This document shows, piece by piece, positions 180 to 27,494 of a DNA stretch of 64,000 bases. Within the stretch, counting starts at the first letter, position 1, and each line of letters begins with the position of its first letter. Position numbers and translations under genes: made by a program. The DNA comes from Echinarachnius parma (taxonomy: Eukaryota > Echinodermata > Echinoidea > Clypeasteroida > Echinarachniidae). Under the pieces are notes generated by a model. The model was not told the DNA's origin. It did no database searches and was given only the letters and a program-made list of their open reading frames with translations. The stretch lies in assembly GCA_037951105.1 (NCBI GenBank), contig JBAMJV010007390.1, forward strand, positions 124,001 to 188,000. Direction: 5' to 3'.

Positions 180-375
180 CTTCAGGACAAAGGAAGCTGA
201 CTTCGTAGTCTGCACACGTCCCGCTCGTCTGGTCAGAATCGTAGCAGACAAGACCGCCCTCGCTATTGAGAGTGCAAGGTCGTTGCAGGACGTTACCGAC
301 CGCATAGTGGCTCTGACCGTCACTCGCACGACGGCAGTCAACACCAGCAGGGTCCGCGCACAATGTTGAGTGCAT
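180..375 (-). CDS. WxxW (Mucin2_WxxW-like) domain, second exon
   Basis: Last exon visible of the minus-strand modular gene; the gene continues past the left edge. It reads in phase 0 from a TTTTGCAG acceptor and ends at a GAAG|GTGAAC donor (phase 1). The reading contains GGLVCYDSDQ, then CADYEVSFLCPE. That pairing of a C-D-Q core with a terminal C-x-DYEV-x-(F/V)-LCP is the C-terminal signature of the WxxW repeat seen in gel mucins and in cartilage intermediate layer protein. The N-terminal half is the next exon upstream (741-820) and the phases match (0/0). The domain is extracellular and disulphide-rich; its ligand is unknown. The reading is clean, with no stop inside. Splice sites were called by eye. 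Confidence 0.85.
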
Positions 376-740
376 CTGCAAAATACAAAATGAGAATTCA
401 TATTATAACTTATAACTTATAAATTATAATGATAAGAAATTGTATTCCTTTAGCATGAACATGTGTATGCATCATGTAAGATTTGTAACTGTCAAAAGCT
501 TACAATTACCAAGAATATAAATGCACTTTTTGAAAATATAATTGAATGATTATTTTCTATTTTTAATTATTCAGACATTAACAAGGTAAACATTGATTCT
601 TATCACAGACAAAATGACACATCTAAAATACAAATATATCCTTTTAAGACACACACCTGCATATATCTACCAATCAACAAGAATAATTATATGATGAAAC
701 TTGTACTTAGCTATTAAAAATGATAGTGAAAATAAATTAC
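376..740 (-). other. Intron between the two WxxW exons
   Basis: AT-rich, with GTAATT donor side at 740 and TTGCAG acceptor side at 376. I see no further element in it. Confidence 0.7.
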
Positions 741-820
741 CTTGTAAATACTGTAGTGGGATTCATCTTCAACACCATCTGAAGGATCATCTGTGTTGTA
801 ATACTCTGTCCACACATTGC
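741..820 (-). CDS. WxxW domain, first exon
   Basis: An 80-bp exon (phase 1 in, phase 0 out) encoding GNVWTEYYNTDDPSDGVEDE followed by SHYSIYK. The W-T-x-(Y/W)-(Y/F)-N-x-DDPSxxxEDE-S-Y order is the N-terminal half of the Mucin2_WxxW module (compare the W-x-x-W-F-D-x-D-x-P pattern); here the second Trp is Tyr. The acceptor is TTTGTTTGTAG and the donor is ACAAG|GTAATT. It joins in frame to the exon at 180-375, and together they give a domain of about 92 residues, the usual size. Confidence 0.85.
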
Positions 821-1231
821 CTACAAACAAATGACAACATAAATGATAACGTATGTGTTAATATTAACCTGTTCCCTACAAGTTTCTGAAATCCCCATAG
901 ACTTTGTACATAGCCCACTAGGTTTCCATAAGCAACAGGTTAACAGTGGTTTTGACAAGTTTTATGTACGGCCAACATTACCTAATAGAGGGAAATGCAT
1001 TTTAAATGGAACTTCCTTCAATGACATGTATCAAAATTGTATATGATGTTACATGTACCTTTATATACTTAATTATCTGTAAGACAAATGAGCATGTAGT
1101 GTAATTTGGAAGGAACTTAATCAAGCTTTAAATATTATCAAATGCAATTCATTTTGAAGATTCATATGGATGGTATTCTTAATAAAGTCTTAATAAAACG
1201 ATCACAGTTCTTAAAAGTGAGTCAAACTAAC
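821..1231 (-). other. Intron between SUEL lectin and WxxW modules
   Basis: AT-rich intron of 411 bp. No mobile element or second gene was recognised. Confidence 0.6.
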
Positions 1232-1393
1232 CGATGCACTCGTAGGTCATGTTGATATACTTGGTGAAACAGTCACACAGCGTGTAGTTGTCTCCCACCG
1301 CACCGAACATCGATTCACTGGTGTGGATAACACAGTGTTCTTTCTTGTCGCACTGTCGCTGCATGCGGTACAGCACCGTGTCCGGATCGCAGT
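1232..1393 (-). CDS. SUEL/rhamnose-binding lectin domain, second exon
   Basis: A 162-bp exon (phase 1 to 1). The reading starts DCDPDTVLYRMQRQCDKKEH and goes on through CVIHTSESMFG, GDNYTLCDCFTKY and MTYECI. The spaced cysteines, the conserved C-x(3)-H-C-x-(I/V) segment and the closing K-Y-(I/L)-x-(V/M)-x-YEC are the C-terminal half of a Gal_Lectin (SUEL-type) domain, as in latrophilins and egg lectins. It is extracellular and expected to bind L-rhamnose or galactose-type sugars. The first half is at 2436-2588. Three decayed copies of the start of this exon lie between the two halves, and this copy is the only one complete to a donor (ATCG|GTTAGT). Confidence 0.88.
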
Positions 1394-1737
1394 CTAAGGG
1401 AAAAATAACAAAATAAAGAATTAAATTAATATATCAGTCAATTAATGTATTAATATGGAAAATACTGCTGAAAACTGCTTGTCTACTAAAAAATCGCCAA
1501 TGTGGTAAAATGAGAGTCGTATACAGCCTAGCTTTCGATCCTAGCAGAATCTTCGTCAGGGCACAAATGACAGTTACTACAGAAAAAACACAGAATATAT
1601 ACCAACATAAACACATGTATGGAAGGGGGGCTGGAAAGAGGAAAGGAGGCGGAGACACAAAACAATGAAAGCAACTGTGAGTGGGTGAGTGTCAGGACTG
1701 CTTGACCAATGTATTAATAAGTACAATACATATCAAT

Positions 1738-1848
1738 TGACTTCAGCTGTGCTGACTGTCGCCTCACTGGTGTTGATGACGCAGTATTCTTTCTTGTTGC
1801 ACTGTCGCTGCATGCGGTACAGAACCGTGTCCGGAGCATACTCACAGT
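1738..1848 (-). pseudogene. Partial duplicate of SUEL second exon, copy A
   Basis: Keeps the acceptor (TTCAG|ACTGTG) and reads DCEYAPDTVLYRMQRQCNKK then EYCVINTSEA, very close to the working exon. It then loses similarity and meets an in-frame stop after EVN. The second half of the exon and its donor are missing, so it could not be used as a cassette without truncating the protein. Confidence 0.85.
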
Positions 1849-1926
1849 CTGAAGTAAAAATAACAAAATAAAGAATTAAATTAATATATCAGTCAAATAA
1901 TTTATTAAGTACAATAAATATCAATT

Positions 1927-2036
1927 GACTTCAGCTGCACTGAATGTCGCCTCACTGGTGTGGATGATGCAGTGTTCTTTCTTGTCGCACTGTTGCTGCA
2001 TGCGGTACAGAACCGTGTCCGGATCATACTCGCATT
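1927..2036 (-). pseudogene. Partial duplicate of SUEL second exon, copy B
   Basis: Reads ECEYDPDTVLYRMQQQCDKK then EHCIIHTSEA after a TAG acceptor. It breaks at the same point as copy A and is followed by the same flank (GCTGAAGTCAATTGATAT), so copies A and B arose by one tandem duplication of an already truncated unit. Confidence 0.85.
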
Positions 2037-2067
2037 CTATTTAAAGGTAAATATAACAATAATATAT

Positions 2068-2153
2068 TGGCTCACTAGTACAGATGATGCCAAGTTTATT
2101 GTCGCAATGTTGCTGCATGCTGTAAAGAACTGTGGTCGGATCATATTCACACT
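2068..2153 (-). pseudogene. Partial duplicate of SUEL second exon, copy C
   Basis: The most diverged copy: ECEYDPTTVLYSMQQHCDNK. Similarity ends near TSEP, and the acceptor is weak (CTCAAG). It is probably the oldest of the three duplicates. Confidence 0.75.
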
Positions 2154-2435
2154 CTTGAGCATAAAACATGAAGAATTCAAATATATCAATTAACCAATCA
2201 ATTTAACTATCATATAAAGCAATGAATAGTCGTATGAAACATTTCATTTTATGCTCTCAAATATCATAAATGAATCAATCAATTAACCAATCAATTAAAC
2301 GATTATATAAATCAATGTCTAAGTCATATAAATTCTTTTGAGTGAAAATTTGAGTGAAATCGATTACTATTTTGTCTCTCGTTCAGTTGTAGAAACAATA
2401 TTATATGAATTTTTTTTAAAGTATGGAAAGCTAAC

Positions 2436-2588
2436 CTGTGGGGTAATGATCATCATAGATGATGCATTTCTCGTTGTGCATCCTTCCATAGAAGGCATTG
2501 GTGATCTGAATGTACTCTCCCTTAGGGCATTGCAGCTTGAGATCCTCATCATCGCAGCGAATCTTTCCCCCTAGGTACAAGGGCGGTC
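2436..2588 (-). CDS. SUEL/rhamnose-binding lectin domain, first exon
   Basis: A 153-bp exon (phase 1 to 1) from a CTCTCAG acceptor to a CACAG|GTTAGC donor. It encodes GPPLYLGGKIRCDDEDLKLQ, then CPKGEYIQITNAFYGR and MHNEKCIIYDDHYPT. The L-x-C-(P/x)-x-G-x-x-I-x-I-x-x-A-x-YGR pattern is the strongly conserved N-terminal half of SUEL-type galactose/rhamnose-binding lectins. Joined to 1232-1393 it makes one lectin domain of about 105 residues, of normal length. Confidence 0.9.
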
Positions 2589-2632
2589 CTGAGAGAAAAA
2601 AGAGGTAGTTAATTAACATTAAACTTCTTGTT

Positions 2633-3356
2633 TACCGTATTTGCTGGTGTATTAACCTCACCTTTTTTCTGACAGAAGAACCCGCAAAGGGGGGGGGGGG
2701 GGGGAGTTGCAGTTAATACACAGAGATGGAGAATATATTCAGTCAGGGGGGTAAGCATGGAATTCATATAAAGTTTAATTATGTTGCAATGATTCCCAGC
2801 ACAGTTTTATCACCTACACAATATGTTTTCCCCTTCAATGACAACCTAAAGTTGGGGGTGCGGTTAATACACAGGTAGGGTTTATACACCAGCCAATACA
2901 TGTATGTAACAAGAATATTACTCCACATGACACTTTAATAACATCTTGAGCGGTTAATACACAGAGATGGAGAAATATATTTCAGTTAGGGGGTAAGTAT
3001 GGCATTCATATAAAGTTTGATTATGTTGCAATGATTCCCAGCACAGTTTTATCACCTACAAAATATGTTTTCCCCTTCAATGACAACCTAAAGTTGGGGG
3101 TGCGGTTAATACACAGGTAGGGTTTATACACCAGCCAATACATGTATGTAACAAGAATATTACTCCACATGACACTTTAATAACATCTTGAGCGGTTAAT
3201 ACACAGAGATGGAGAAAGATATTTCAGTTAGGGGGGTAAGTATGGCATTCATATCAAGTTTGATTATGTTGCAATGATTCCCAGCACAGTTGTATCACCT
3301 ACAAAATATGTTTTCCCCTTCAATGCGGTTCATACGCCGGCCAATACATGTACGTA
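2633..3356. mobile_element. CCGTATTTG-type inverted-repeat element, tandemly expanded inside
   Basis: The left end is TACCGTATTTGCTGGTGTAT. Internal and terminal ends of the form GTTAATACAC plus CCAGCCAATAC are diverged inverted counterparts. The same terminal sequence bounds the better-preserved element at 10976-12222. No coding capacity was seen, so it is a non-autonomous DNA transposon. It lies in the intron between the Ig and SUEL exons. Confidence 0.6.
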
Positions 3357-3405
3357 AGAAGAATATTACTCCACATGACACTTTACTAACATCTTCATCA
3401 CTACA
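2700..3405. repeat. Three tandem ~242-bp units
   Basis: The phrase GTTAATACACAGAGATGGAG recurs near 2714, 2952 and 3197, followed each time by the same sequence through CAATGATTCCCAGCACAG and CTCCACATGACACTTTA. The third unit is shortened near its middle. A G-run of about 17 sits at 2691-2705. This is an internal expansion of the element at 2633-3356. Confidence 0.8.
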
Positions 3406-3550
3406 ACTTCAGTACCACTGTCCCTTTTGAAACATTTAACCCCAAACCACCATAACCATAATGGATTAGGTTTTATACTGTATGTCAAAGTTTTGTCATA
3501 TTTCATTTCACCTTGCCTCTTCTTCGCTCCCTGTTTTCCTATTTCTATAC

Positions 3551-3705
3551 AGTTAAACCTGTCTATATCAGCCAACCTGCCTATAGTGGCCACTCAAAGT
3601 GATCTCTTGCAGAGAAAAACAGTGCAATTGAGTCTATAGAGGTCACTGTCTACAGTGGCCACATTTCTTGTCTCCCTTGGGTGGCCACTATAGACAGGTT
3701 TGACT
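3551..3705. mobile_element. Short inverted-repeat element, GTGGCCAC family, copy 1
   Basis: Ends TTAAACCTGTCTATA and TATAGACAGGTTTGAC are inverted repeats, with several GTGGCCACT motifs inside. Related copies lie at 15338-16375 (interrupted) and 59477-59636. Confidence 0.75.
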
Positions 3706-4020
3706 TCAAAGCGCTTAGAGACTTAAATATATTTGTTGTGATTATGAGCTATATATTTGTTGTGATTATGAGCTATATAAAAATGGTTCATTATCATTAT
3801 AACCATGCTCATCCCCTTCAGCATTAACATCTCCATCATCTTCAGATGAACACAACTATTAAAGTATAGGGTCAAATGAAGGACAGTATGGGATGATAAA
3901 TTGAAATATTTACTTGTGGAAAAATAATGCACATAATTCGATGTCATTTCTTAGTTGTTTCTAATGAGGCTGGCGAAGAGTATAGAAATAATTAGACGTA
4001 CAAATATGCAGTGCTCATAC

Positions 4021-4311
4021 CTTTATGACTGTAAAATGATGACCGATCGCTGCCATGTTGGTTCTTTGCCACGCATGTGTAGTAGCCACGATCATCAAAG
4101 TACGGGTGGAACTGTATCTCGGAAATAACATGATGGTCGTCGATAGCATATGAGACAATGGTTGCATTTTCGTTGCCCTCATACTGGTACCCATCACGGA
4201 TCCACGTGATGTTTGGAAGTGGCATGCCGAAGGCGAGACATTGGATCGTTCCATTATACTCGTAGTGGAGCTTGGTGGAGTTGATGACCTCTAGCACTTC
4301 CGGCTTCTCAT
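4021..4311 (-). CDS. Immunoglobulin-like domain exon
   Basis: A 291-bp exon (phase 1 to 1) encoding 97 residues. It shows the Ig core: Cys in GTIQCLAFGMPLP, Trp in NITWIRDG, and DDRGYYTCVAKNQHG with the D-x-G-x-Y-x-C signature before the second Cys. It is an I-set type domain typical of cell-adhesion and matrix proteins. N-glycosylation sequons are visible (NGT, NIT, NAT). The acceptor is TAAATCAG and the donor is AAAG|GTATGA. The upstream exon I recognise (6886-7124) ends in phase 0, so at least one small exon between them is missing from my reading, or lost. Confidence 0.87.
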
Positions 4312-5190
4312 CTGATTTAAAGAAGAAATGGGATGATAAACATGATTGTAATTCATTGCTGTTGGTAACCCAGTGTATCATGTACTAAAAATATGGAAAT
4401 TGTACAATCTAGCAGGGAACAGGTAAAATAAAGTATAAAGAGTAAAGAATCAGACACCACCTGCTATTAGGAAGTGGTTAATAACGTTAGCATAAAAGTC
4501 CAAGCTGGTTTTTCTCCTTTCAAAAAGCAAGGCCACTTAAAAAAAATTTTTATACAGACGATTTTCTTTTGAAAGCAAAATCGAAACTACATGTAAATAA
4601 TATTTGAGATTGAATTGAATGTTGTAATGGATATGTTATTGCTACCATCGTAATACAATTAAAGAGCAATGCAACTCAAGAATAGAGTTAATCCTACTTG
4701 ATACATCGTAATTTATAAAACATTTCATGGTTATGGAGCCAAATAAGGTAGAGGCAAAGGAACAGATATGTCAACTTTCACAAACCAACACAAGTATTGT
4801 AACCATGTCGTTTTCATAGTGCACTTCTTTTCATCGGATGCGTCCGGAAACGGGCACTATGAATGTTACAGAGGAGAAATAGCTGATAGAATACCTGATG
4901 AAAAGAATAGAAATAGGTGATTAAATTTCCTACATAAGAGCAGGAGAAATTCTCTTCTATCGGTGTCACTCTGCTGAAACAGGCAATATGAAGTTTTTCA
5001 GGAGAAAAATGGGAGAAAATATGATGCACAGCCATGATGTGCGCTGCATGCTATCTAGCTAGCTATTAGGGCCGGGAGTAGGCTTGATAAATTGATTGTT
5101 CTATTTGTATCTTGCATGAATAATAAACTTTGTAAACAAATCCAAATTGATATATATATCGTATATTATATTAAGTACGAAATACATATA
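4312..5190. other. Intron sequence without recognised features
   Basis: AT-rich. Two weakly similar ~55-bp stretches, around 4828 and 4955, share CTTTTC(A/T)TCGG and CAGGAGAAA. No supported exon was found. Confidence 0.5.
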
Positions 5191-5372
5191 AGACCAAATC
5201 GTGAACATAACAATGTTTCAAACTGATCAATAACCAATTTTATGAAAGAATAATGGAATTTTGTTGATAGCGCTGTTATTGTTTTATAGTAGCGATATCA
5301 AAAACAGTCTATTTTTTTTCAATCATTTGGTATTGATCAATTTGAAACATTGTTCTGTTTACAATTTGGTCA
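5191..5372. repeat. Foldback repeat
   Basis: Arms of about 45 bp: AGACCAAATCGTGAACATAA at the left is the inverted counterpart of GTTTACAATTTGGTC at the right, both including CAATGTTTCAAA and TGATCAATA. It looks like a small hairpin transposon relic. Confidence 0.7.
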
Positions 5373-5639
5373 CAACAAATAGATAAAATATACACAGGAA
5401 GTACCAACATAATAGCTTTTATAAATGAAGAATCTAAAAAAGAATGTTATTTTCCATGGGGTATGAATAATTTTGAGGACAACTGTATATACAGTTTGCA
5501 TGAATACTTATTCTTGTATTCCTAATGCCAACCAATAAAATGTAAATTTTCATGTCACACCTATATTTCCATTGATTTTTGGCCTATTTTTTGGCCATTT
5601 TCAATACAAATATATTAAACTAACAATGCAAACTCAATA

Positions 5640-6650
5640 TAAACAGACACAAAATGCAACAAAAGTTTGATTAAAACCTGGCATTGGCATGTAAAATGAG
5701 TCCTATTACCTTGACCTCATCCTCATTACTCCAACAATTTGTTTTGCTACGTTGCCTCTTTAAGATACATTCAGGTACCAAGTTTTAGTGAAATAGGACA
5801 CTAAACAATAAGTTCTTGTAATTTGCCATTACAAGCAATTTTCGCATTTATATTCCTGTGACCTTGGTCTTTGACCCATTGACCCAGAGATGCCATCCTT
5901 TACATACCAACAAAAATATGCTGAGGTAAAAAACAGTATTTTTTAACCAAAAATAAGTCTTTTTTTAGGTTGACTACCTATGAGGTTAAAATCAAAAATT
6001 TTCGCAAAGTTGTTTTCGTGCAGCAAAAATACTCTTTACATTTGCATTAATATAAAAGTTTATTCAGTCGATCACATAGCGTTTTTTAGACTGTTTTCAA
6101 ATACATTACTTTTAAAATATTTTTTTCAGGGTTCAACCTAATTCTTTTTGCCATTTACGAGAGTTACTGTATGGTGAGGAGGAGAAGGATGAACAAAAAG
6201 AAAGCTTTTTTTTTTCTTCAAAAAACGTTTATTTTTTCGAAAACATACTGCCGTATTTACACAAAAAAACGTACTAAAAACGGCAAAATCTTACTACTTG
6301 GAATCTCTGTTGACCCCAAAATCTGATCAGATCTTTGCTACCCCAATAAACTACATTAGTCATACTAAGTTTGAAATTGATTTGTCAACTGGTTGAGAAA
6401 TTTAGAAACAAGGCATTTACATGTATTCATATTTATTAAGTCTTATGACCTTTACCTTTGAACCAATGACTGCTATAATGTAATCAGATCATTGTCACCC
6501 CATATGTACACTAATACCAAGTTTGAAATTGATCCATCAACCGGTTCTTGAGATATCGTGAGAACAAAAAGACGGGACGGACAGATGGACGGACAGACAA
6601 CCCAAGGAACATAATGCCTCCGGCCACTTTGTTGGCGGAGGCATAAAAAT
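5640..6650. mobile_element. Diverged GGAGGCATAA-end element with TGACCTCAT motifs
   Basis: The right end (GACGGACAGATGGACGGACA, then ACATAATGCCTCCGGCCAC, then GCGGAGGCATAA) matches the ends of the tandem-repeat elements at 13024-14411 and 19643-20388. Inside are single, old copies of the CCAAGTTTGAAATTGAT and GACCTTTGACC motifs. The left limit is uncertain. Confidence 0.6.
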
Positions 6651-6885
6651 TGCCTTTTAAAGCTATAAAAGACAAGCCACTATGGGCAGCAACACTAAAA
6701 ATTGTTGGTTGCTAGATTTTATCCAAAACATTTCCATACAAAATTTCAAAGAAATCCGTCATGAAATGTGGCACTAAGAGCACACATAAGAATATGTGGC
6801 GGTGTAATGCTGCTGAATCCAAAATTTCCCCCTGCAGCATACTATCATTTCCTAAATTACATCATAACTACATTATGTATTTTAC

Positions 6886-7124
6886 CTGTCTGTGAGTCAA
6901 GGCCTCTTGTGGAACCACGACAATCCTGCCCCTATAAGTTGCGCCGAGGTACTCCCTGATACCTCTCGGGGAGCACAACTCCTCCGGCACCTCTCTCAAA
7001 GTCCTGTTTCTATTTGACGTGTAGTAAAATTGCACTCTGGCACCTTGTAAATTAAATGTTCTATTTGCAAACTGTCTGAACGCATCTCCATCCATGTCAA
7101 GTCCAACAGACTCCTCATGCAGGC
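6886..7124 (-). CDS. Unidentified exon of the modular gene
   Basis: A 239-bp open exon (phase 1 in, phase 0 out) with an ACCTATTTAG acceptor and an AGACAG|GTAAAA donor. It reads ESVGLDMDGDAFRQFANRTF, NLQGARVQFYYTSNRNRT, EELCSPRGIREYLG and GRIVVVPQEALTHRQ. I do not recognise the domain. The phase pattern 1-to-0 is the same as that of the discoidin N-half exon at 21387-21715, so a very diverged discoidin-type half is possible, but the residues do not show the family signature. One Cys and an N-glycosylation sequon (NRT) are present. Support rests on the clean frame and splice signals. Confidence 0.6.
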
Positions 7125-7578
7125 CTAAATAGGTTATCAATAACAAAGAAAAGACAGATTATTCATTAAGGTTCAGTTACTATGGTTATTTTTTTTACAA
7201 ACAGTAAGATTATATTGACATGCAATCAATGAGGAACATGATATAATTTATGGATTGGATGGCTATAAGTGGCAGGAGGGCAATTCCAAGGTAACAGCGT
7301 GATGGTCAGAGGGTGTTTCTCACGATGAAAGTCTAAATACCTCACTAAATAAAAATGTCCAGAACTAATTTTGATATGCATATGTATATCACAATCCTAC
7401 CAATTATTTACAATAGGATAGAAAACCCAAGATTCCCAATAAATTATGAATTATGAATATCAATATCTGCGGTAACAGCGTGACAGTAAAAGGACATGCT
7501 CAGGCATTAGGCAAACTCTGTGAACTACAAGAACATTTTGCAATTTTGTCACATTGATTCTTTGTAATAGACATCAAC
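7125..7578. other. Intron sequence, nothing recognised
   Basis: AT-rich. The phrase GGTAACAGCGTGA occurs twice (near 7291 and 7471), with a related GGTAACATCGTGACGGTAA near 10000. No further structure was seen. Confidence 0.5.
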
Positions 7579-7804
7579 ATACCTGCCTACATTTGAAAAT
7601 AAAAAATCTTACTCTCATGTGAGCGAATCGCACATTACGAGTGCGGAGCACGAAGTCCTTTGCGGCAGGGGACCAGCTCTAGGGTTCTAGAAGCTCTCTT
7701 GCGCTATCTTAGCCTTATTTTTAAACATAATTATGACCACACTAAATGAGCAATACTTCAATGACAAAAATCATGAATATGTTGGCTTATGAGCTTTTTC
7801 ATAT

Positions 7805-8232
7805 GTGACCTTACACCACAAATCGACCGTTATGTCACTGTGGTAGTTTCTCTTTTATTAGCTAGAATAGTCAAATTTTGATCAAAATATGAGATTTAGG
7901 ATTTTGGTATTTCCTGAATAAGCATATCTCAATCTACCTTCTTGGAAATTTGAGCGTGGGATATCATGTTTAAATATTAACGTTTCATTCAATAAAAGTG
8001 ATCTTATTACAGGTTTGAATAGACACTGATTTTTTAAGCGGCCCATTTCTTCCTTATTTTAGAAATGCTTCAGCCATTTTCCATATCTTTGGCATTCATT
8101 TTGAAATGGTTTGCTTATAGTCCAAATATGACAAATTATATACCATTTTAAAGGTAATGGCTTCTATTTTAATATGAAAATAAGCAAAATCAGTTTTCCC
8201 GACATATTGGTCGTTTTGTGGTGTAAGGTCAC
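7805..8232. mobile_element. Inverted-repeat element with GTGACCTTACACCACAAA ends
   Basis: Terminal inverted repeats of about 24 bp: GTGACCTTACACCACAAATC at the left and the matching TTGTGGTGTAAGGTCAC at the right. TA dinucleotides lie at or next to both ends, consistent with TA target-site choice. It is about 428 bp long and non-coding, so a MITE. Confidence 0.8.
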
Positions 8233-8623
8233 TACATTCATAAAAATATATATGTGTGTATCTATATGCACATTTACCTTTTAAATTTTCTTTTAAACCG
8301 AACCCTTGTTGACTTTCAAATTGGCAAAATTTGGTATGTTTGTGAAGGAAATGTTACTTTTTCTAAGGATATTAACGTAATCCGCGATATAGATGTTGAA
8401 ATTTGACTTAAAAGGTCTTCGAAAATGGGGCAAAAGAGAGCCGTCTCGTTGACTGAAATTCGCTCAATGATCGGCCTGAAAATCGTGACGTCACCGGTTG
8501 AATGGGCCCGGCCGATCAGCTGATCAAGCAAAGCGACGCGCGTGCATTGTATGTACTGCATGTGTTGTGTATATTGCTTTTTGATAACGTACGATCGAGC
8601 TCGACAGTTTTATTTCGAGGAAA

Positions 8624-8749
8624 ATGGAGGAAAATACTCTCGAACTGAGTTTCGCAATGGATTTTTCCGAAGAAGATGAAGAAGAGGACAGGAATGATTC
8701 ATCAGACAGCGACAATGATAACGGGGATTTTGGAGACTTTTGGCGCTAG
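8624..8749 (+). CDS. Short acidic ORF inside a repeat, possibly a transposase N-terminus remnant
   Basis: The ATG at 8624 opens 41 residues, MEENTLELSFAMDFSEEDEE then EDRNDSSDSDNDNGDFGDFW, ending at TAG. A GTGACGTCAC palindrome lies about 130 bp upstream. Acidic Ser/Asp-rich N-termini are common in some DNA transposases, but no catalytic domain follows. It may equally be a chance ORF. Confidence 0.25.
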   Translation: MEENTLELSFAMDFSEEDEEEDRNDSSDSDNDNGDFGDFWR

Positions 8750-8760
8750 TTCACTATTGT

Positions 8761-9062: not shown

Positions 9063-9148
9063 TTCAATGCGCCCTTCCCCCCAGCATTTTCCCGGCAAAC
9101 TAGTGCATGGACATGGTGCAATTCGCTATACAATTGCCGCAGCCATAC

Positions 9149-17389: not shown

Positions 17390-17456
17390 CTGCAAAACAG
17401 ATCAGGGGAAACATGTCACAGTATTGATATCATACGTGGTTGTTATTATACAGATG

Positions 17457-17972: not shown

Positions 17973-17980
17973 ACTGGTGG

Positions 17981-18675: not shown

Positions 18676-19052
18676 CTAGAAACAAGGTCAATTATAAAAA
18701 AATTATGATGACAATAGTCCATTCATCGTAGCTGCCATTTACTAGAAACAAGGTTAAAGTATTCAATGTAATATTAAGCATTATTGATATACATAAACCA
18801 TTTTACTAAAGACATTTCCATCACCCCTGAAAAAAATTATTTGCTTTATATGCCATTAACTAGAAACCAGGTCAAATTAGAAATAATATTTATGACAATA
18901 GTCAAGCATTCATATTGTGCAATCAATCTAAAAGTTCTATTCTGAGGGACATCATACTATAAGGTTAATTATGGGCTATAGCCAAGCTGCCTTGCAGGCC
19001 CATCCAGCATTTCAAGGAATGCATTCCTGCCAGGTACCCATTTACTACACCT
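18676..19052. other. Intron with duplicated splice-site fragments
   Basis: GTAGCTGCCATTTACTAGAA (near 18729) and TGCCATTAACTAGAAACCAG (near 18851) copy the acceptor and first codons of the TSP1 exon at 18505-18675. The rest is AT-rich. Confidence 0.6.
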
Positions 19053-19223
19053 GGGCCCCCGTTGCAGAAAGAGATACAATCGATTGTAAGTTGCAATTAA
19101 TGGTAAGTCGGATCACGTGTTCTACATGCGCAAATCTGATCGGTTGAAACGCGCAAATTTTCTGACTTCAATTGTAACTTACAATCGATTGTATATATCG
19201 ATCTCTTTCTGCAACGAGGCCCT
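19053..19223. mobile_element. GTTGCAGAAAGAG MITE, copy 1
   Basis: Ends GGGCCCCCGTTGCAGAAAGA and CTTTCTGCAACGAGGCCC, then ACAATCGATTGTAAGTTGCA and its complement, form a near-complete hairpin of about 170 bp. A second copy is at 32859-33001. Confidence 0.88.
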
Positions 19224-19274
19224 TGATTGATACCAGCAAATGAGAATAAAGTGTCTTGCTGAAGGTTACACATT

Positions 19275-19521
19275 AAGGGTAGAAATCTCATCAACAGGTT
19301 AAATTTAGTCTGGGTTAAATTTAACCCGAGTGTAGAAAGCGCTAATTGAATGATGAAAAAAATTAGATAAATGCCAAGGGAGACCATGGTGGCAAAGCAT
19401 TAATTACCCGGCTTTACATAAAACAGTGGGTTAAATTTAACCTAATTCTGACGTAAAACGACGCGAATGATACATTTTGGCACCATGCTAAATTTAACCT
19501 TTTGATGAGAATTCCACCCGT
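19275..19521. mobile_element. MITE with GGGTAGAAATCTCATCA ends
   Basis: GGGTAGAAATCTCATCAACA at the left pairs with TTTTGATGAGAATTCCACCC at the right. GGTTAAATTTA motifs occur four times inside in both orientations. It is about 247 bp long and non-coding. Confidence 0.8.
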
Positions 19522-19642
19522 AGGGGTTGGGAATCAACCCCTTGACTCCTCTATTGAGAGAAGAAGAATCAAACCAATACATTACAACACTCCTACTTTA
19601 TTGCTATAAATAAAGCAAGTCTACTGGAAACAAATTCAAACT

Positions 19643-20388
19643 AGATGGATCTTCTCCGCCATTACACGATTTATTTATATCAAGCCCAAATCAACATGTA
19701 CACTGAATTAATTCTGTCAACTCAATTTAATTGATGCTACTCTGTCTTTTAGATCTTGACATATCACAATTATGACCTTGACCTTTGCCCTCATGACCCC
19801 AAAATCTAATGACTACAATTGCTCCCTAAGATACATTCAGGTATCAAGTTGGATTGAAATCTGATATTCAGTTCTTGAGATTTCCAATCACAAGCTACTT
19901 TTACATATAATGAGCCCTGTGACCTTTGACCTCATGACCCCAAAATCTAATCAGTTCATTGGCTCCCCAAGATACATACATGTACCATGTTTGGTCAGAA
20001 TCCGTCAATCTGTTCTTTAGATATCGCGATCAGGAGGTATTTTTGCATATATAATGAGCTCTGTGACCTTTGACCGCATGACCCAAAAATCTAATCAGAT
20101 TTTCGGCCTCCTAAGTTACATACATGTACCAAGTTTGGTCACAATCCGTCAATCCGTTCTTGAGATAACGCGATCACAAGCTATTTTTGCATATATAATG
20201 AGCTCTGTGACCTTTGACCTCATGACCCCAAAATCTAATCAGATCATCGGCCCCAAGTTTGGTGAAAATCCATCAATCGGTTCTTGAGATAACGCGATCA
20301 CGAGAACGGGACGTACGGACGTACGGACGGACGGATGGACGTACGTACGGACGGACGGACCTCCGGCTACTTCGTTGCGGAGGCATAA
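19643..20388. mobile_element. GGAGGCATAA-end element with four tandem units, copy 2
   Basis: Same family as 13024-14411: ACTAGATGGATCTTC left flank, CCTCATGACCCCAAAATC near 19789, 19930, 20074 (changed) and 20219, then a GACGGACGG run and GCGGAGGCATAA. Confidence 0.83.
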
Positions 20389-20599
20389 TAAAAATACAAA
20401 TAATTGCCATAAAACTGTATTCACTTGAACTGGCTGCCATTTAAGGAATCAAATTACAATTCCAACAAGTGCAAGAAGAAACCAGAACGTCAATGACGTA
20501 GCGCTCATCCGCCATATCGCAACATCAAATATCGCAAATTTCATGTGGTACACTTTTCAACTGGTCGAAAAATAAAAATTTGATGCCCTGGAAGGGACA

Positions 20600-20717
20600 T
20601 ACAAAATAAAAAAATTTAAAAAAAAATTAAAAAAAATACATAAATAAAAAAATAAAAAATAAAAAATAAATTAATTAATTAATTAATAAAAAAAAAATAA
20701 AAAAATAAAAATAAAAA

Positions 20718-20754
<37 letters not shown>

Positions 20755-21290
20755 AAAATTACCATAATTAATTAATGGAGAACAATTTCAAAATTCTGTG
20801 TAGAAGTTTAGTGTACCCAAAGTTAGCTCTACTAGATAAAGCAAACCAAATCAAAATCGGTCGGGAAATGAAGGAGAAGAAGCATTTTTTGTGATTTCTG
20901 GAATAAATTTGCATAAATTACCATAATTAATTACCAGAGAAAAATTTCAAAATTCTGTGTAGAAGTTTAGTGTACCAAAGTTAGCTCTACCAGATAGGGC
21001 AAACCAAATCAAAATCGGTCGAGAAATGAAGGAGAAGAAGCATTTTTTGTGACTTCTGGAATAAATTTGCATAAATTACCATAGATAATGAATTTCACGA
21101 TTCTGTGTAGAAGTTTTAAATCCCCCTCCTAGCCCTATCTTATGAAACAATCAGAATCAAAATCGGTTGAAAAATAACGAAGAAGAAGCATTTTGAAAAC
21201 TGTGGACGGACGGAAGGACGGACAGAAGGATCGAAGGACGGACGGAAGGACGGACGGACGGACGCCGGACGCCGGACGCCGGACGCCACT
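20600..21290. repeat. A/T microsatellite, three ~158-bp tandem units and a GGAC run
   Basis: 20600-20760 is an (AAAT/TAAA)-rich run. Then AATTCTGTGTAGAAGTTTAG recurs near 20794, 20951 and 21098, with GAAATGAAGGAGAAGAAGCA after each of the first two. 21203-21286 is a (GGAC) and GCCGGACGCC run. Architecture resembles the GGAGGCATAA family, but the unit sequence differs. Confidence 0.8.
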
Positions 21291-21386
21291 CCAGAACAAC
21301 CAAATTAATGTTCCACAAAACTCCTCAATATTCTACACTTTACAATTCATATTAGTTCTAAAATAGCAAATAATGACTAGCAATAC

Positions 21387-21715
21387 CTTAAGATTCCCAG
21401 ATTCATCTGTGCAGTACTCATATGACGAATACTCGTCGGCCGCGTACTGCAGATAGTAGGAGGTCACATAGAGGTCATCGTCTGACCGACCTTGAACAGC
21501 TACACTCAGCAAGGTCACGGGGTCGGTCATGTTGACCTCCAGCCACTCTGAAGTCGTTGAATTCACTGGCATCCAGCAATCGGTGGACCTCAAGGAATCA
21601 ACGCGAGCGGTGTTCCCACAGTTTGATGATGCTGCAGTGGACGTGCAGCTTGATTCAGAGAACTGCGTGTCGGCGAGGTCGCCGTTTACCACACCAAGTT
21701 CGGCTCCTTCACTAC
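21387..21715 (-). CDS. Discoidin (F5/8 type C) domain, N-terminal exon
   Basis: A 329-bp exon (phase 1 in, phase 0 out), TTTACAG acceptor and TTAAG|GTATTG donor. It reads GSEGAELGVVNGDLADTQFS, TDCWMPVNSTTSEWLEVNMT and VAVQGRSDDDLYVTSYYLQY. E-W-L-x-V-N, V-x-G-R and V-T-S-Y-x-L-Q-Y are hallmark strands of the discoidin fold, which usually binds phospholipid, collagen or glycans. The C-terminal half should follow in phase 0 at lower coordinates, but none was found before the next TSP1 exon at 18675, which starts in phase 1. A fitting C-half exists only upstream at 23154-23284. Confidence 0.88.
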
Positions 21716-21873
21716 CTGTAAATGAATAAGGGATAGTCTAGAGATTATTACTTCAAGTTTGCGGTTATGAGAAAGATGGCGGTAACAAACTTTAGGAAGT
21801 ATAATGTCAACGGAGAAAACAATTCGCAAAACATATGGATGTTACATCAATAACAGTATAAATCGTAGGCTAC

Positions 21874-22050
21874 CTGAACATGATAAGGCAGAGTCACAGC
21901 TGACCCAGCGAGAAGTGATGCCCACGCACGGCGCCCCTCCGTAACGTTTCCGGGGGTTGTTGCATTCCCGCACCTCCTGCTTGATTCCGTCTGTCCCACA
22001 TGCGGTGCTGCAGTTAACGCTCGTCTCCCATGCAGACCAGCCGCCGTCAA
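21874..22050 (-). CDS. Thrombospondin type 1 repeat exon (177-bp class)
   Basis: Phase 1 to 1: VDGGWSAWETSVNCSTACGT, DGIKQEVRECNNPRKRYGGA, PCVGITSRWVSCDSALSCS. Same length and CDSALSC-type tail as the exon at 17213-17389, showing this is a distinct TSP1 subclass. Acceptor CTCTTCAG, donor TTCAG|GTAGCC. Confidence 0.9.
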
Positions 22051-22500
22051 CTGAAGAGGAGGTATGAAAAAAAGAATAATTCCACAGGTGTTTTCACAAA
22101 GATTTAAATACCATATTTTCCGCAAGCAATACAGTCAACATTTGCCTCTTACTGTACGTTAACCAATTTGAAACACAGCATGAAAGTTGGAAAAACCATC
22201 AATATTTTCTATTGTCAAGGATTCTCATGTTCTGGATGTAAAATTTCTAAACGGAAATACTGTATTTACAATTTAGCTCTTGGATATGAGCTTCATTTTT
22301 AGATGACACATGGCTTACCATAATTGAAAGTTCAATTACGTAACAATGAACAAAAAACGATGGGATTAATATCAGACAAACTGGAAAACTGGAAAAACAC
22401 TAACAATTTTCAAGAGTTTTGTAGGAAAATTATAAATCATAAGACTTTCTTACAACCAAGAATAACTGAAACAGAACAAGGAAAATCTACAAAATCTTAC
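22051..22500. other. Intron between TSP1 exons
   Basis: AT-rich, no element recognised. Confidence 0.6.
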
Positions 22501-22671
22501 TTGGGCAGTTTTGAGTGCTGCACTCCCGTGATTTGGTGTCGCGACCACCGCAAGTTTGGCCTCCGTATTTCGGCGCAGGGTTGTTGCACGTGCGGTTTTG
22601 GTACTGCATACCACCGCCGCAGGTCACATTACACTCAGACCACTCTCCCCACGCACCATATCTTCCGTCAA
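22501..22671 (-). CDS. Thrombospondin type 1 repeat exon (171-bp class)
   Basis: Phase 1 to 1: VDGRYGAWGEWSECNVTCGG, GMQYQNRTCNNPAPKYGGQT, CGGRDTKSRECSTQNCP. Classical W-x-x-W-x-x-C-x-V-T-C-G-G-G TSP1, most like the exon at 18505-18675 (same length, same CST-x-x-CP tail). Acceptor TTCTGCAG, donor CCAA|GTAAGA. Confidence 0.93.
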
Positions 22672-23153
22672 CTGCAGAAAAATATTTGCAATCATATTTG
22701 CAATCAATTACCAATTAATATCAGGTAGAAAGAAATACACATTCATAATATTACATTGTAGTCCAACATTTTGAGGGAAATTTATCCTCCATTTTGTCTA
22801 ATTCTCCCAATGAACCAAAACTCAAGGAATATTGGAATGAAATAGTTTATCTTCAGGTTATCAGTGTCTAGATGCTTAATTTTTTGTGGCTATCGGATGT
22901 ATTCTATGAAGTCAAATCAGTACTGCAGGATATTTTTACCTCTAAAAAAAATTTTTTATTTGAAAACCGTGACAATTTACCTGAAAAGAAACATAATTCA
23001 TCATGTTTTCTAATTGAGTGCAATACATATTCGCTGGTATCAATTGTATCATAGATATACATACATGTATTAGTTCTTGGAAATTTCTTAAGAATAAATT
23101 GCAAAGAAACAGAAATGTAACTATTTGACAAAACAATATTCCCTGGCAGATAT
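22672..23153. other. Intron or read-through tail beside discoidin C-half
   Basis: AT-rich. The discoidin C-half frame stays open on the minus strand down to about 22904 without any discoidin similarity. No clear donor is visible. Confidence 0.5.
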
Positions 23154-23284
23154 TCTCCATAGATCTCTACTCTCATGCAGATGGCTCGATTCCAACTTGT
23201 CGGGTAGATCCTTACATAGCCAACATCGCTGATGTTCACATCCTGACGCACCACTGTGGTGCTATCAAAGTTCCCTCTGAATGA
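23154..23284 (-). pseudogene. Discoidin domain C-terminal half, no recognisable donor
   Basis: Opens in phase 0 after a TTTCTACAG acceptor and reads SFRGNFDSTTVVRQDVNISD, VGYVRIYPTSW, RAICMRVEIYG. R-G-N-x-D and Y-V-R-I-Y-P-T-S-W..I-C-(M/L)-R-V-E-(I/L)-Y-G are the standard end of a discoidin domain. A normal exon would end near IYG with a GT donor, but the sequence runs on as GAATATCTGCCAGGG with no plausible site. Its own N-half (23699-23752) is cut short. By phase it would suit the exon at 21387-21715, but it lies on the wrong side of it. Either a decaying exon or a rearranged locus. Confidence 0.78.
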
Positions 23285-23467
23285 CTGTAGAAAACAGGAA
23301 AGAGGATCCAATCATAAATCATTTAGAAATCAAATCATTGACAAATTATTCACATATTGCATACATGTATTGACAAATTATTCACATATTGCATACATGT
23401 ATATCCACATACACTGTAGTTACATTGTAGTAAATATTTCAGAAGATGCATTATTAAGCATATGTGA

Positions 23468-23698
23468 CTGCTATAGCAAAACCCGGCACTTGTCAGTATT
23501 ACTCATGTTTTGAAGACTTTAAGTTCACATAATGTGTAACTTGTAATTGTAAAATTAAACAATCATATCATCGCCAATTATTGACCAATTTGTTAGAACA
23601 AATCATGAATTGAAAGCTTGTGATGAGGCCTTTCTAATGGTATGATAATCTACATTTTGATTTTTACCGACAAGTGCAGGGTTTTGCTACAGCCGGTC
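23468..23698. mobile_element. MITE with GCAAAACCC..GCACTTGTC ends, abutting a discoidin exon
   Basis: GCTATAGCAAAACCCGGCAC at the left and GTGCAGGGTTTTGCTACAGC at the right are inverted repeats, possibly extending to TGAC at the outside. It is about 230 bp long. The right end touches discoidin coding sequence at about 23699. Confidence 0.82.
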
Positions 23699-23752
23699 AA
23701 AACGCGTTGGTGAAATTATGCTCTTCCATGCCAAGCGCATTGTCTTCATCAC
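23699..23752 (-). pseudogene. Discoidin domain N-terminus, fragment cut by a MITE
   Basis: From a TTTGTAACAG acceptor in phase 1 the frame reads GDEDNALGMEEHNFTNA, the usual start of a discoidin domain (compare EGAELGVVNG at 21715 and NNYALGVADS at 15259). It then enters the MITE, where the frame closes at once. No continuation of the exon is visible on the far side of the MITE. Confidence 0.7.
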
Positions 23753-23888
23753 CTGTTACAAATTTGTCATTAATAAATTACTAATAATATTACGAATGAT
23801 GATACTGATAACATTTAGGCAATATATCAAACAAAAAAGTCCCACATTATATCATCTTTAAATGTTTTTAATATCAATTATTATAATA

Positions 23889-24122
23889 TAGTGTAGCCAA
23901 GAATTATTTGGACACCTTGAAAAAATCACTTTAATTTAAATGATGCTAGAACAAATTTTGAAGAAAATGTTTGGTAAAAAGCTGCCTAAAATTCATTGTA
24001 TGTGTTTATTAGATGCTGCTTTGTAGAAATCAAGATAAAATACAAGACCATTTTTGAAAAATTATCAAAATAGTTAGTTTCCTATTTTTCAGGGTGTCCA
24101 AATTATTGTTGGCTACACTGTA
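23889..24122. mobile_element. Tc1/mariner-like MITE (GTGTAGCCAA ends)
   Basis: GTGTAGCCAAGAATTATTTG and CAAATTATTGTTGGCTACAC are inverted ends about 27 bp long including GGACACC, with TA at or near each side. No coding sequence. Confidence 0.82.
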
Positions 24123-24478
24123 AGAAGATCAATAATGCAATACTTTGGACAAAAGGCTGTAATGCTGATTCAGAAGTTTTTTTCTTCATGTTAATCATAC
24201 TTCTTTAAAAACTGTACACATTTTACATATTCAGACAGATTACATAGTCAAACAGAGAAGGACTCACTTAAATTGTAAGATTCTGTGCATCACATATTGG
24301 TCTATGCTTGGTCGGTGCCGTTTTGTCTATATTTGAGTTTGATTATATCTTGCATCATGAACTACTGATGACTATATACCATTTTAAACATGTACCAGGT
24401 ATGTTAATAATCGTATACAAACAAGTGAAAAACAAAACATTTTGAACTAATTTAATTAGATTAAAATGTGCCACTTAC

Positions 24479-24655
24479 TTGTACAAGCATTCAGAGTATC
24501 GCAGCTGACAAATCTTGTTGCTTCCCCAATGCAGTCGTCACCATCGTATTGGGGAGTGGGGTTGGTGCAGTTGCGCGACTGTTCGACAACGCCTCCAGTC
24601 CCGCATGAGATGGAGCACTCCGTTACGTCAACGAATGATGTCCAGTTGCCGTGGA
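24479..24655 (-). CDS. Thrombospondin type 1 repeat exon (177-bp class)
   Basis: Phase 1 to 1: VHGNWTSFVDVTECSISCGT, GGVVEQSRNCTNPTPQYDGD, DCIGEATRFVSCDTLNACT. Third member of the 177-bp subclass with the CD-x-x-x-x-C tail. Acceptor TTGACACAG, donor ACAA|GTAAGT. Confidence 0.9.
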
Positions 24656-24943
24656 CTGTGTCAATAAAGACATTTGTTGACATAATTAGTTTCCTCATTC
24701 GACACAAAATTATATAATTGTCATATAATTCAGACAATATGGCATGACATTACTATAGGCAATGGATTCAAACAAAGCTTTTCAAAAATGACATTCTGAA
24801 CAAAAGGTGCTATTCTAAATATCACGCAGGGCTTTGAGGCTGAAACAAACATTGATGCAACAGGAACACTTATTTAGTGCCTTAATACCATCAAAATGCA
24901 ATATTACAAAGGTTTTTGACAATGAAGTGTACATTAAACTTAC

Positions 24944-24994
24944 TTGGACAGGGGTTATCTCCACAGCTTTGGCGCTGCTCATCGGCAAAGGAAC
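24944..24994 (-). CDS. TSP1 tail only, 51-bp exon
   Basis: A 51-bp exon (phase 1 to 1) reading GSFADEQRQSCGDNPCP, which aligns with the last third of the 171-bp TSP1 class (CST-x-x-CP). Acceptor CATCTTCAG, donor CCAA|GTAAGT, both good. The front two thirds of the repeat, with its Trp and first cysteines, were not found between here and the LamG exon, so the module cannot fold as a TSP1. Probably a truncated repeat that kept a usable acceptor, or a repeat split by an intron whose first part is lost. Confidence 0.7.
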
Positions 24995-25409
24995 CTGAAG
25001 ATGAAGAAAAAGAAAGTAACAATAGCAACTCAACAATAACATGTTTATATAAATCTACATGTTTAGGTAGTAAAACTCCTCTTTCATGTAAATGTACATG
25101 TAGGAACAAGCATACTATATTTATGGTCTCTGTGACAAGCATCTACAGTTATGTACTATATCATACAGAATCTGACCTCCAGTTCATGAACATCACAGAT
25201 TTTTAAAAAAACTTCATGTTTTATGAATATACCAGAAAATTTACTTTAAAATTTTCATTGAAAAAGAACACTGCTTTCCTGGTTAAAAAAGCGAAAATTT
25301 GCGTCAGCTTTTACAACGAATTACTGTATAGCGTGTATGAGGTTTATGACCGTTTATTAGCGCTCTTGAGCTGAATGATTATTAATGATAGATATCATCA
25401 TACTAACGG

Positions 25410-25536
25410 GGCATTTCAAAAAATCTAACCCTATTTTATTCTTCTCTTACCATAAGCCAAACAACACGGTAGAAGAGAAATGTGGAAGCTCCAAGTAATT
25501 TTCGTGGAGTTAGACACTTTACTGGTTTCACTTTAA
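25410..25536. repeat. Dispersed ~130-bp repeat, copy 2 (inverted)
   Basis: Inverse orientation of 16731-16859; shares CTATTTTATTCTTCTCTTAC and GTGGAGTTAGACACTTTA. Confidence 0.75.
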
Positions 25537-25652
25537 GGTAACTTGAATGTTGGCTTGTTTACTTTAATACCAACATCATATCCTCTTGAACATGTTCAAA
25601 ATTTGGGTTCATTAGAAGGCTCAAATAAAATAAATAAACAATAAAATCTTAC

Positions 25653-26356
25653 CTAGATAGAGAAGCTTCAAATCCGTGGTGTACATCCTCCTAAAATAGA
25701 ATTGAAGGTCACTCATCGCCACGATAACATCGTATGCGGAGGCCGAGGCGTTCACGTAGTTCCCTCCGAGGTACAAGTTCGTGGGAGACGTACCGAGGGT
25801 GGTCACTGAGCTCGAAGACTCCAGTAAGCTCTCTGCAAGCTCGCCGTTGAGGTAAAGACGCAGCCCCTTGCCGCGCTTGTACGTGAACGCGACGTGGAAC
25901 CAGCTGCTATCCGGCATGTTGTCGTTGCTCACGGTGTATGCGTAACCGAGAGCTGAAGGATAGGCCCGGTGCCACCGGCTCCTGCCGTCCAGACATTCGA
26001 AATTGACACGTCAACACCCGCAGAGCTCAGGATGTATGTCCTGTCGTCGACGGTGCCGCCTGCTGCAAGCTTCGTCCAGAACGCAACTGTAAGCCCCTCC
26101 TTGCAGAGGGTCAGGTCGTAGAGGCAGGACTCGGCGTGATCGCCGAGATCGACAAACTTCCCCTCGAAAGCGAGGGCGCACTTGTGTTCTGCTCCGTCGC
26201 GTGCCTCCTCGAGGGATGCTGATTTGCTCAGTTGACCTGACATGGAGCTTCCGGTTGCAGGAACCAAACCGTAAGTGCATGGGGAGCTGCAATCCTTGAT
26301 GTCATAATCAAAGGGGCATCTGCCACTGAGGTCGAATTCTAGCGATGGTTGGTAGT
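25653..26356 (-). CDS. LamG / concanavalin-like domain exon with a frame change
   Basis: A 704-bp exon with a TCGACAG acceptor (phase 1). The first frame reads DYQPSLEFDLSGRCPFDYDI, ALAFEGKFVDLGDHAESCLY, DLTLCKEGLTVAFWTK and ILQLS. After about 25953 the homology moves to another frame: GYAYTVSNDNMPDSSWFHVA, FTYKRGKGLRLYLNGELAES, TNLYLGGNYVNASASAYDVI, SDLQFYFRRMYTTDLKLLYL. F-W-x-K, W-F-H-V-A-F-T-Y and G-L-R-L-Y-L-N-G-E are typical of the Laminin_G_3 fold. Donor TCTAG|GTAAGA is in phase 1 for the second frame. A phase 1-to-1 exon would be 705 bp, so one base is missing: real damage or an assembly error. Confidence 0.8.
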
Positions 26357-27037
26357 CTGTCGAAGACAAGATTTTACATGATGTGATTGGTGAAATATAA
26401 TCATAACAGTAAAAAAAAACATTTTCGAGGGCTACTTTTCAAGCTTGCAGCACTCTAAAGTTTGTTTTGCTTTGAACTATATGCAAATTTTCCAGGGCCT
26501 CCTGTATGATTTTGGGGACTCTTTTTGGCCTTTTGGGGGGCTTATCTGCCCTGAGACCCCATGTATATTTTTCAGCGAACAAGATGTCCGGTCTGTAAAG
26601 TGCCTAAGGTAATATGAAACAATATCACAAATGTGGGGTAAAGATTTCTCATGTGGCAAACTCTTTGTGCCCATCTTGTCCATAAGGCACAGCTATGCTT
26701 TAATTTCATGGTACTGCAGGACCAAATGGGAGCAAGACAGTTATTGGTAGTACATGTCATACGATGAGCCCCTAACAAATATGATTTGTGAGAATTGAAA
26801 ATGATCTTTTATACATTTAATTTGGATTGAAATCTATAAGATCAATCAAATAAATCAGAAATGTAACACTGTACAATAATGGAACATTCAAAAGATGGTT
26901 GGATGCAGTATAAAGACAAAATCATATGATATTTATATTAACCCATTCACTAACCAGAACCTGGCGTATCTTGTATTAACTCTATAGGAATGATAATTTC
27001 CTGAAGTCAAAGGGTTTACCAATGACAAATTACTTAC
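26357..27037. other. Intron between LamG and mucin-like exons
   Basis: AT-rich with no recognised element. GGGGGG near 26534 is unremarkable. Confidence 0.5.
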
Positions 27038-27494
27038 CAAGCTGGTCTTCCTTCAGCCAGTAGCCTACCAGACTGCTCCATGCGCTACCTCCGATGACCC
27101 AGATCCAGTCCCAGTCCCCGATTCCACGGGTGCGCGTTTTTGTCTTGACCTGGCCAGTCCGCCGTCGTTGACGTCGTAGGCGTACTTGAACATCATGATC
27201 GTCTCCTGGTCGTTCATGAAGGTTCCCGTGTCCCTTCTCCTCCTACGTCTGGACTTGCCTGGTCCACCCGTGGTCTCCTCCGTGCTTAATTCTTCAGTGG
27301 TCATATCTTCGGTCCACATATCCTCGGTTGACATTTCTTCCGTCGTCTTTTCTTCCGTTGTCATTTTTTCTGTCGTCTTCTCTTCCGTTGTCATCTCCGC
27401 AGTCGACATTTCCTCAGTCGACATTTCCTCTGTCGTCATTTCCTCCGTTGTCACAGCTTCAGTTGTATACGAGGACTCGGTTGTCGGGACATAG
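27038..27494 (-). CDS. Thr/Glu mucin-like exon with furin-type sites, 5' end fused to a retroelement
   Basis: The minus strand reads about 15 imperfect pentapeptides of the form (T/S)TE(E/D)(M/K), for example TTEEMSTEEMSTAEM, then GKSRRRRRRDTG, then MFKYAYDVNDGGLARSRQKR. R-Q-K-R followed by A is a furin-type cleavage motif, and the Thr-rich part is a likely O-glycosylated stalk. The first frame closes near 27066, while another frame from about 27120 reads DWDWIWVIGGSAWSSLVGYW then LKEDQL up to the donor CTTG|GTAAGT (phase 1), which fits the LamG exon. So there is a frame change here too. The upstream limit at 27494 is where Penelope-like sequence begins; the apparent acceptor TTTCTTCCAG lies in that element. 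Confidence 0.6.

Follow-up and report, generated by a model that had tools for sequence, protein, structure and literature searches.

When a modular extracellular gene is found broken at several places, some of them beside mobile elements, is it a dying copy, or does it live on by splicing past its damaged modules? In this work we have addressed this question for a 64,000-nucleotide stretch of the Echinarachnius parma genome, called here the window, which covers positions 124001-188000 of contig C7379 in an assembly of 1.2 gigabases and 14,790 contigs (below, C and a number denote a contig, and w and a number a position within the window). Judged from its sequence, the window very probably holds a duplicated, unprocessed pseudogene, that is, an incomplete copy of a large gene for a modular extracellular protein, whose intact relative is at another locus. 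We favour this reading because there is an intact second locus, the lesions are absent from it, part of the 5΄ coding sequence is missing, an allele-like contig is broken differently, and the ratio of replacement to silent change (pN/pS) is higher than at the intact locus. A preliminary description of the window had proposed either a pseudogene in progress or a gene that skips its broken modules, and the second locus, the window-specific lesions, the allele-like contig and the weaker constraint lend good support to the first of these branches.

The modular gene lies on the minus strand of the window, where Pfam matches were obtained to Mucin2_WxxW, Ig, TSP1, F5/8C and Laminin_G_3, with SUEL under its curated cut-off. 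Searching exon by exon with tblastn, using sequences of the intact locus as queries, detected more than the Pfam scans of whole minus-strand frames, which returned few domains. From 5΄ to 3΄, the gene consists of a Thr/Glu-rich mucin-like stretch, LamG, TSP1 and discoidin (F5/8C) modules, and then Ig, SUEL lectin and WxxW exons. Eleven of the 14 window exons that have both splice sites are in phase 1-1, and the remaining three, each half of a discoidin or WxxW domain, are in phase 1-0 or 0-1; skipping both halves of a discoidin preserves the phase. The phases read from the exon boundaries thus agree with what had been described, namely that phase-1 rules dominate the exon pairs and that symmetric 1-1 exons permit in-frame skipping.

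The intact relative on C9951 and C2050

Among the best 40 of 727 candidates for w25560-27494, there are besides the window two long matches, on C2050 and C9951, at 94%, and the other 37 listed matches are short repeats. The correspondence with this locus covers w14.4-27.5 kilobases (kb), at a substitution divergence of 3.9-4.2%. C9951 and C2050 are 1.7% apart, and since the window is 3.9-4.2% away, the pair behaves like two alleles of one other locus. In both contigs 16 consecutive exons, with AG and GT present at the exon ends, join into a single open frame of 1364 residues in C9951 and 1352 residues in C2050, which is the part of the gene that was read. Chance was rejected as the origin of this frame, as more than 1350 residues are kept open in two copies 1.7% apart. 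In the C9951 product Pfam recognizes three F5/8C, five TSP1 and one LamG domains, and there is a weak fibrinogen-C match at its start. All three discoidins are complete in C9951 and C2050, and in the protein search LamG is one open piece of 241 residues in both, and two pieces in C7379.

A second copy with intact discoidins was what the preliminary description had named as the observation that would speak against its readings. Such a copy is present at the C9951/C2050 locus, and the allele-like contig C3565, described below, does not provide one. As the intact discoidins stand at another locus, they show the copy in the window to be a broken duplicate; the observation of the breaks was itself no error.

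The intact locus extends beyond the frame that was read. Further 5΄, C9951 carries discoidin, TSP1, PAN-like and fibrinogen-like exons, and further 3΄ two TSP1 exons, more discoidins, a C-type-lectin-like part and SUEL, the PAN-like, fibrinogen-like and C-type-lectin-like assignments being our own reading. Piecewise, and at 77-95% identity, C9951 22979-26073 and C2050 95667-98382 correspond to the Ig-SUEL-WxxW stretch of the window. As a separate observation on this pair, C9951 57850-52050 and C2050 have diverged about three times as much in the 5΄ half (3.6% in non-exon sequence) as in the 3΄ half (1.1%), and the silent differences are concentrated in the 5΄ exons.

Lesions of the window copy and the elements beside them

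The features of the segment homologous to the intact locus, and of the repeats within it and at its ends, are the following, in the 5΄ to 3΄ order of the gene:

w27495..29477, plus strand: repeat block, the end of a Penelope-like element and then another repeat open reading frame on the minus strand
w27038..27494, minus strand: mucin-like exon remnant, 3΄ part only, cut at the w27495 repeat junction
w25653..26356, minus strand: LamG exon, with a 16-base-pair (bp) deletion between 25942 and 25941, frame shifted
w24944..24994, minus strand: TSP1-tail exon, 51 bp, intact, phase 1-1
w24479..24655, minus strand: TSP1 exon, open, phase 1-1
w23701..23752, minus strand: stub, old truncated copy of a discoidin N-half exon
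w23461..23699, unstranded: stretch resembling a miniature inverted-repeat transposable element (MITE), about 240 bp, inverted ends, same place in C9951, C2050 and C3565
w23143..23284, minus strand: first discoidin C-half exon, open, donor GT lost
w22501..22671, minus strand: TSP1 exon, open, phase 1-1
w21874..22050, minus strand: TSP1 exon, open, phase 1-1
w21387..21715, minus strand: second discoidin N-half exon, open, phase 1-0, C-half gone
w21285..21288, unstranded: deletion junction, second discoidin C-half removed, counterpart at C9951 49045-48901 and C3565 25414-25558
w18505..18675, minus strand: TSP1 exon, open in the window, 1-bp deletion in C3565
w17213..17389, minus strand: TSP1 exon, open in the window, absent from the C3565 stretch examined
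w15357..16240, unstranded: repeat of about 880 bp with inverted arms, inside an intron, absent at this place in C9951 and C2050
w15104..15259, minus strand: third discoidin, first exon, both splice sites intact
w12989..14410, unstranded: dispersed HINE/Pearl-like element, with tandem repeats of about 151 bp, a GGAC microsatellite and a terminal palindrome (the palindrome by eye)

The window copy carries six lesions, and the corresponding exons in C9951 and C2050 showed none of them. At its 5΄ end, the mucin-like exon stops at w27495 against what looks like a Penelope-like element that is itself 5΄-truncated within its GIY-YIG-like coding part; other Penelope-like copies on C7379 extend, by eye, upstream of this truncation into a reverse transcriptase-like YVDD stretch and GVYTIPCECSKVYIGETG. 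The window fragment of the element has no Pfam match, and the repeat at w27495-29477 has no match in the examined stretches of C9951, C2050 and C3565. The 99 residues expected before the cut occur at two places genome-wide, C9951 and C2050 (all five candidates were scored), and the tested pieces of the upstream C9951 exons (to position 61000) gave no clear match on the 237-kb C7379 beyond the shared TSP1 and discoidin types. Within the mucin-like remnant, a 5-bp insertion at about w27063-27067 shifts the frame relative to C9951 and C2050. Together with the LamG deletion, it accounts for the single change of frame noticed earlier in each of these two exons, both changes being evident against both intact copies.

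The three discoidins are incomplete in the window, as had been described. In the first, about 470 bp are lost at w23699/23701, including the entire N-half exon (332 bp in C9951), and one side of this deletion is the exact end of the MITE-like stretch, so called from its inverted ends at this locus, as copies were not searched for genome-wide. The C-half exon that follows has GGAATATT in place of GTATATTG at its donor. In the second, the C-half exon, retained in C9951, C2050 and C3565, has been removed by a deletion one side of which is the end of a CGGACGC/GGAC tandem array. We considered w21287 as a mobile-element end and rejected it, since it is the edge of this microsatellite. This deletion at w21285/21288 and the donor loss at w23142/23143 had been overlooked in the preliminary description. 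For exons 2 and 3 of the third discoidin no match was found in this part of C7379, since w14410, the end of the HINE/Pearl-like element, is as far as homology to the intact locus extends; in C2050 the same element forms a clean insertion (86022-84763) relative to C9951 35476.

As a raw count of the six lesions, one lies at a mobile-element end (w27495), one at a MITE-like end (w23699) and one at a microsatellite edge (w21287), and no repeat was seen at the other three. The earlier proposal that the gene is losing modules to transposons therefore holds in part. Of the three breaks placed at mobile-element ends, the one at 27494 does adjoin the start of a repeat and the one at 23699 a MITE-like end, but 15085 is no lesion.

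At this last place the exon terminates at w15104, its GTGAGT donor is intact, and the end, the donor and the exons that follow are arranged in the same way and are intact in C9951 and C2050, so that w15085 belongs to an ordinary intron. A many-copy repeat (w14682-15088) ends about 15 bases inside this intron, next to the donor. Discoidins one and two have no intron at this position, and we considered whether the repeat had made a new one here; we do not claim this, as the intron is present at both loci. The TSP1 reduced to its tail, which had also been taken as a fault, is an intact 51-bp exon without any difference in the window, C9951, C2050 and C3565, and therefore predates the duplication. 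Likewise, the discoidin exon does not begin with the stub at w23701-23752, which is the remnant of an older truncated tandem copy that stands beside the exon in C9951, C2050 and C3565 as well. Truncated exon copies adjoin intact ones elsewhere too, for SUEL, discoidin and TSP1 (w1736-2160; C9951 53195-53094, 51628-51509, 49441-49355 and 59968-59888), and, as several are common to the loci, it seems that parts of exons have been duplicated often, and long ago, in this gene.

Related contigs, constraint and rival explanations

The allele-like contig C3565 is collinear with w18171-25138, at 95-99.5% by segment and 87% in the repeat-rich w20311-21285, and differs from the window by 1.9% substitutions over 5,506 aligned bases. 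Its damage is its own: the N-half of the first discoidin is split by an insert with inverted ends and has a 1-bp deletion, and another 1-bp deletion shifts the frame of the TSP1 exon at w18505..18675. The LamG and mucin exons were not found in C3565, and the next TSP1 exon and most of one discoidin exon are gone. A further contig, C6246, matches C7379 in the right flank (w30460-33400, as two pieces of 97% and 92%) and over the Ig-SUEL-WxxW stretch. It gave no match to w14410-15357, w16900-18760, w21290-23340 or w25560-27494 among the best 40 of 2058, 11027, 386 and 727 candidates, respectively. If C7379, C3565 and C6246 are to be one diploid locus, a further duplication is needed. At C4590, a further related locus, a small number of the gene's exons occur, 80-92% identical.

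Silent and replacement differences were counted by the Nei-Gojobori method, and pairs were compared by Fisher's test. Between C9951 and C2050 there are 65 silent and 19 replacement differences over 1342 codons (pN/pS 0.08), and between the window and C3565 10 silent and 13 replacement differences over 399 codons (pN/pS 0.37); the contrast is significant over all exons (p 0.0037) and over the seven exons that all four copies have in common (16:4 versus 10:13, p 0.027). In the 3΄ half, the exons have diverged from C9951 about as much as the non-exon sequence, both in the window (5.3% and 4.3%) and in C3565 (6.3% and 6.1%), and the values between C9951 and C2050 are 0.6% for exons and 1.1% for the rest.

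We propose that part of the gene was duplicated; the second locus shows the duplication, and its direction is our inference. The copy would then have lost its 5΄ end at the mobile-element junction, and its middle, most plausibly after the duplication, and would have become dispensable. Further loss would have come by deletions, some of them beside element or microsatellite ends, and by small insertions and deletions, the lesions themselves being observed. Exons would now be lost separately on different haplotypes, in part through deletions or insertions where mobile or repeated elements end.

Several observations weigh against a pseudogene. In the window, eight exons of the segment are still open and have kept their two splice sites. 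In the 5΄ half, the exons have diverged from C9951 slightly less than non-exon sequence in the window (3.7% versus 4.6%), and clearly more slowly in C3565 (2.5% versus 6.7%; 17/676 and 76/1139 sites); part of this is expected because the C9951 side is constrained, and the slower 5΄ exons may also reflect a degree of constraint or an exchange between the copies. The pN/pS of 0.37, which comes from 23 differences, is below 1, one discoidin exon differs from C9951 by a single base, the TSP1-tail exon is unchanged across all four copies, and the Ig, SUEL and WxxW exons of w180-4311 are open. The intact pair also carries changes, a 15-bp in-frame deletion in one discoidin exon of C2050 and a 6-bp in-frame insertion at the mucin exon end of C9951. 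Finally, there is a small chance of a misjoin at the repeats of w27495 or w14410.

The open exons, the slowly diverging 5΄ exons of C3565, the prevalence of 1-1 phases and the phase kept when both discoidin halves are dropped all favour a living gene, which would splice past its broken symmetric modules and make a shorter protein from another start. We regard this as unlikely. The gene's own 5΄ end was not found, as the mucin exon is cut at w27495, its 5΄ part is found only at the C9951/C2050 locus and the upstream exons that were tested gave no clear match on the contig (a new start was not sought). The TSP1 modules that are retained show six silent and six replacement differences between the window and C3565, and the C3565 frameshift falls in a TSP1 module that the window keeps. 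The same three points argue against the skipping branch of the preliminary description.

An assembly artefact, in which pieces of C7379 were misjoined at repeats and the breaks are consensus errors, appears very improbable. Both outer ends of the homologous segment do lie at repeats (w14410 and w27495), and allele-like contigs stand side by side in the assembly. However, the LamG and mucin lesions, of 16 bp and 5 bp, are unlike short homopolymer slips, the window contains no undetermined bases (0 Ns), and C3565 is collinear with the window while showing different damage at the places of w21287 and w23700. A young functional duplicate of new architecture, with haplotypes carrying different useful sets of modules, would fit the different modules held, as far as searched, by C7379, C3565 and C6246, but it is extremely improbable, since changes that are plainly disabling occur both in the window copy and in C3565, and the intact locus is the more strongly constrained.

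Flanking modules, other repeats and known systems

To the 3΄ side of the broken segment, the window carries a group of exons of the same modular kind:

w4021..4311, minus strand: Ig exon, open, phase 1-1
w2436..2588, minus strand: SUEL lectin first-half exon, open, phase 1-1
w1736..2160, minus strand: three truncated tandem copies of the SUEL second-half exon, each ending in a stop
w1232..1393, minus strand: SUEL lectin second-half exon, complete, phase 1-1
w741..820, minus strand: WxxW domain exon a, phase 1-0
w180..375, minus strand: WxxW domain exon b, phase 0-1

Position 180, where the region described earlier begins, is an exon end and no more; related (lectin) exons extend to the left of the window. 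The 6-kb Ig-SUEL-WxxW stretch (w-849..6050) recurs about 20 kb to the left, at w-21328..-15348 (C7379 102672-108652), at 98-99%, and this left copy is without w945-1708, that is, without the complete SUEL second-half exon. A repeat of about 260 bp at w1452-1710, for which more than 30 copies at 94-100% are listed elsewhere, is absent from the matching C6246 and C3565 stretches and is thus probably a recent insertion. Elements at w8293-9824 (1.5 kb) and w10974-12225 (1.25 kb) are 94-97% alike in other contigs and missing from the matching part of C3565. Two tandem arrays were also observed, one at C7379 16513-54541 with a period of about 2.04 kb and copies 94-99% alike, and one at w60644-61504 with about 14 copies of a 60-bp repeat, open in more than one plus-strand frame.

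The combination of TSP1, F5/8C and WxxW modules occurs in modular proteins of the matrix or of adhesive function, the coadhesin-like proteins among them. Compared with coadhesin-like proteins, as generally described, the gene of the window adds LamG, SUEL and Ig parts and, by our own reading, fibrinogen-like and C-type-lectin-like parts too. Among the papers listed for this module set, and for phase-1 exon shuffling with pseudogenes, none was seen to concern this gene.

The window copy resembles duplicated (unprocessed) pseudogenes in its kept introns and intron-exon structure, in having an intact homologous gene elsewhere in the genome (the 16-exon frame and LamG of C9951 and C2050), in its six disabling lesions absent from that relative, with frameshifts and loss of exons and splice sites, and in a relaxed purifying selection (0.37 versus 0.08, from small counts and with a ratio below 1). 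Nothing essential differs from this class; what is unusual is to find differently decayed allele-like contigs and an intact pair in one assembly. The element at w12989-14410 shares central tandem repeats, a four-base microsatellite (GGAC here) and a terminal palindrome with HINE/Pearl elements, non-autonomous Helentrons that are described in bivalves with GTCC-type microsatellite motifs (PMC7492417). In the Mediterranean mussel, gene presence-absence variation is described in which large stretches are present in one haplotype and not in another (PMC7653742), and the relation of C7379 to C6246 is similar to what that report describes. Here, however, the comparison concerns a single genome, and the absence from C6246 is judged from best-40 match lists and not from reads.

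What does this locus tell about the decay of modular genes? Most likely the copy is an ordinary duplicate on its way to loss, in which the steps of decay can be seen clearly. As a discovery this is ordinary, since duplicates of modular genes decay in this manner; it is a known kind with good comparison copies. One assembly gives a series, formed by an intact allele-like pair, a decayed pair broken differently, and C6246, with the flanks and no match to the four tested pieces. This series would let the exon-loss events be ordered and those that start at mobile or repeat ends be counted, and it would allow one to ask whether symmetric modules go first, their loss being harmless to the frame. It is quite unlikely that haplotypes of one modular extracellular gene carry different intact module sets, with at least one shortened version still made. 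If this were true, the ends of mobile and repeated elements would generate standing variation in domain content, one symmetric exon at a time.

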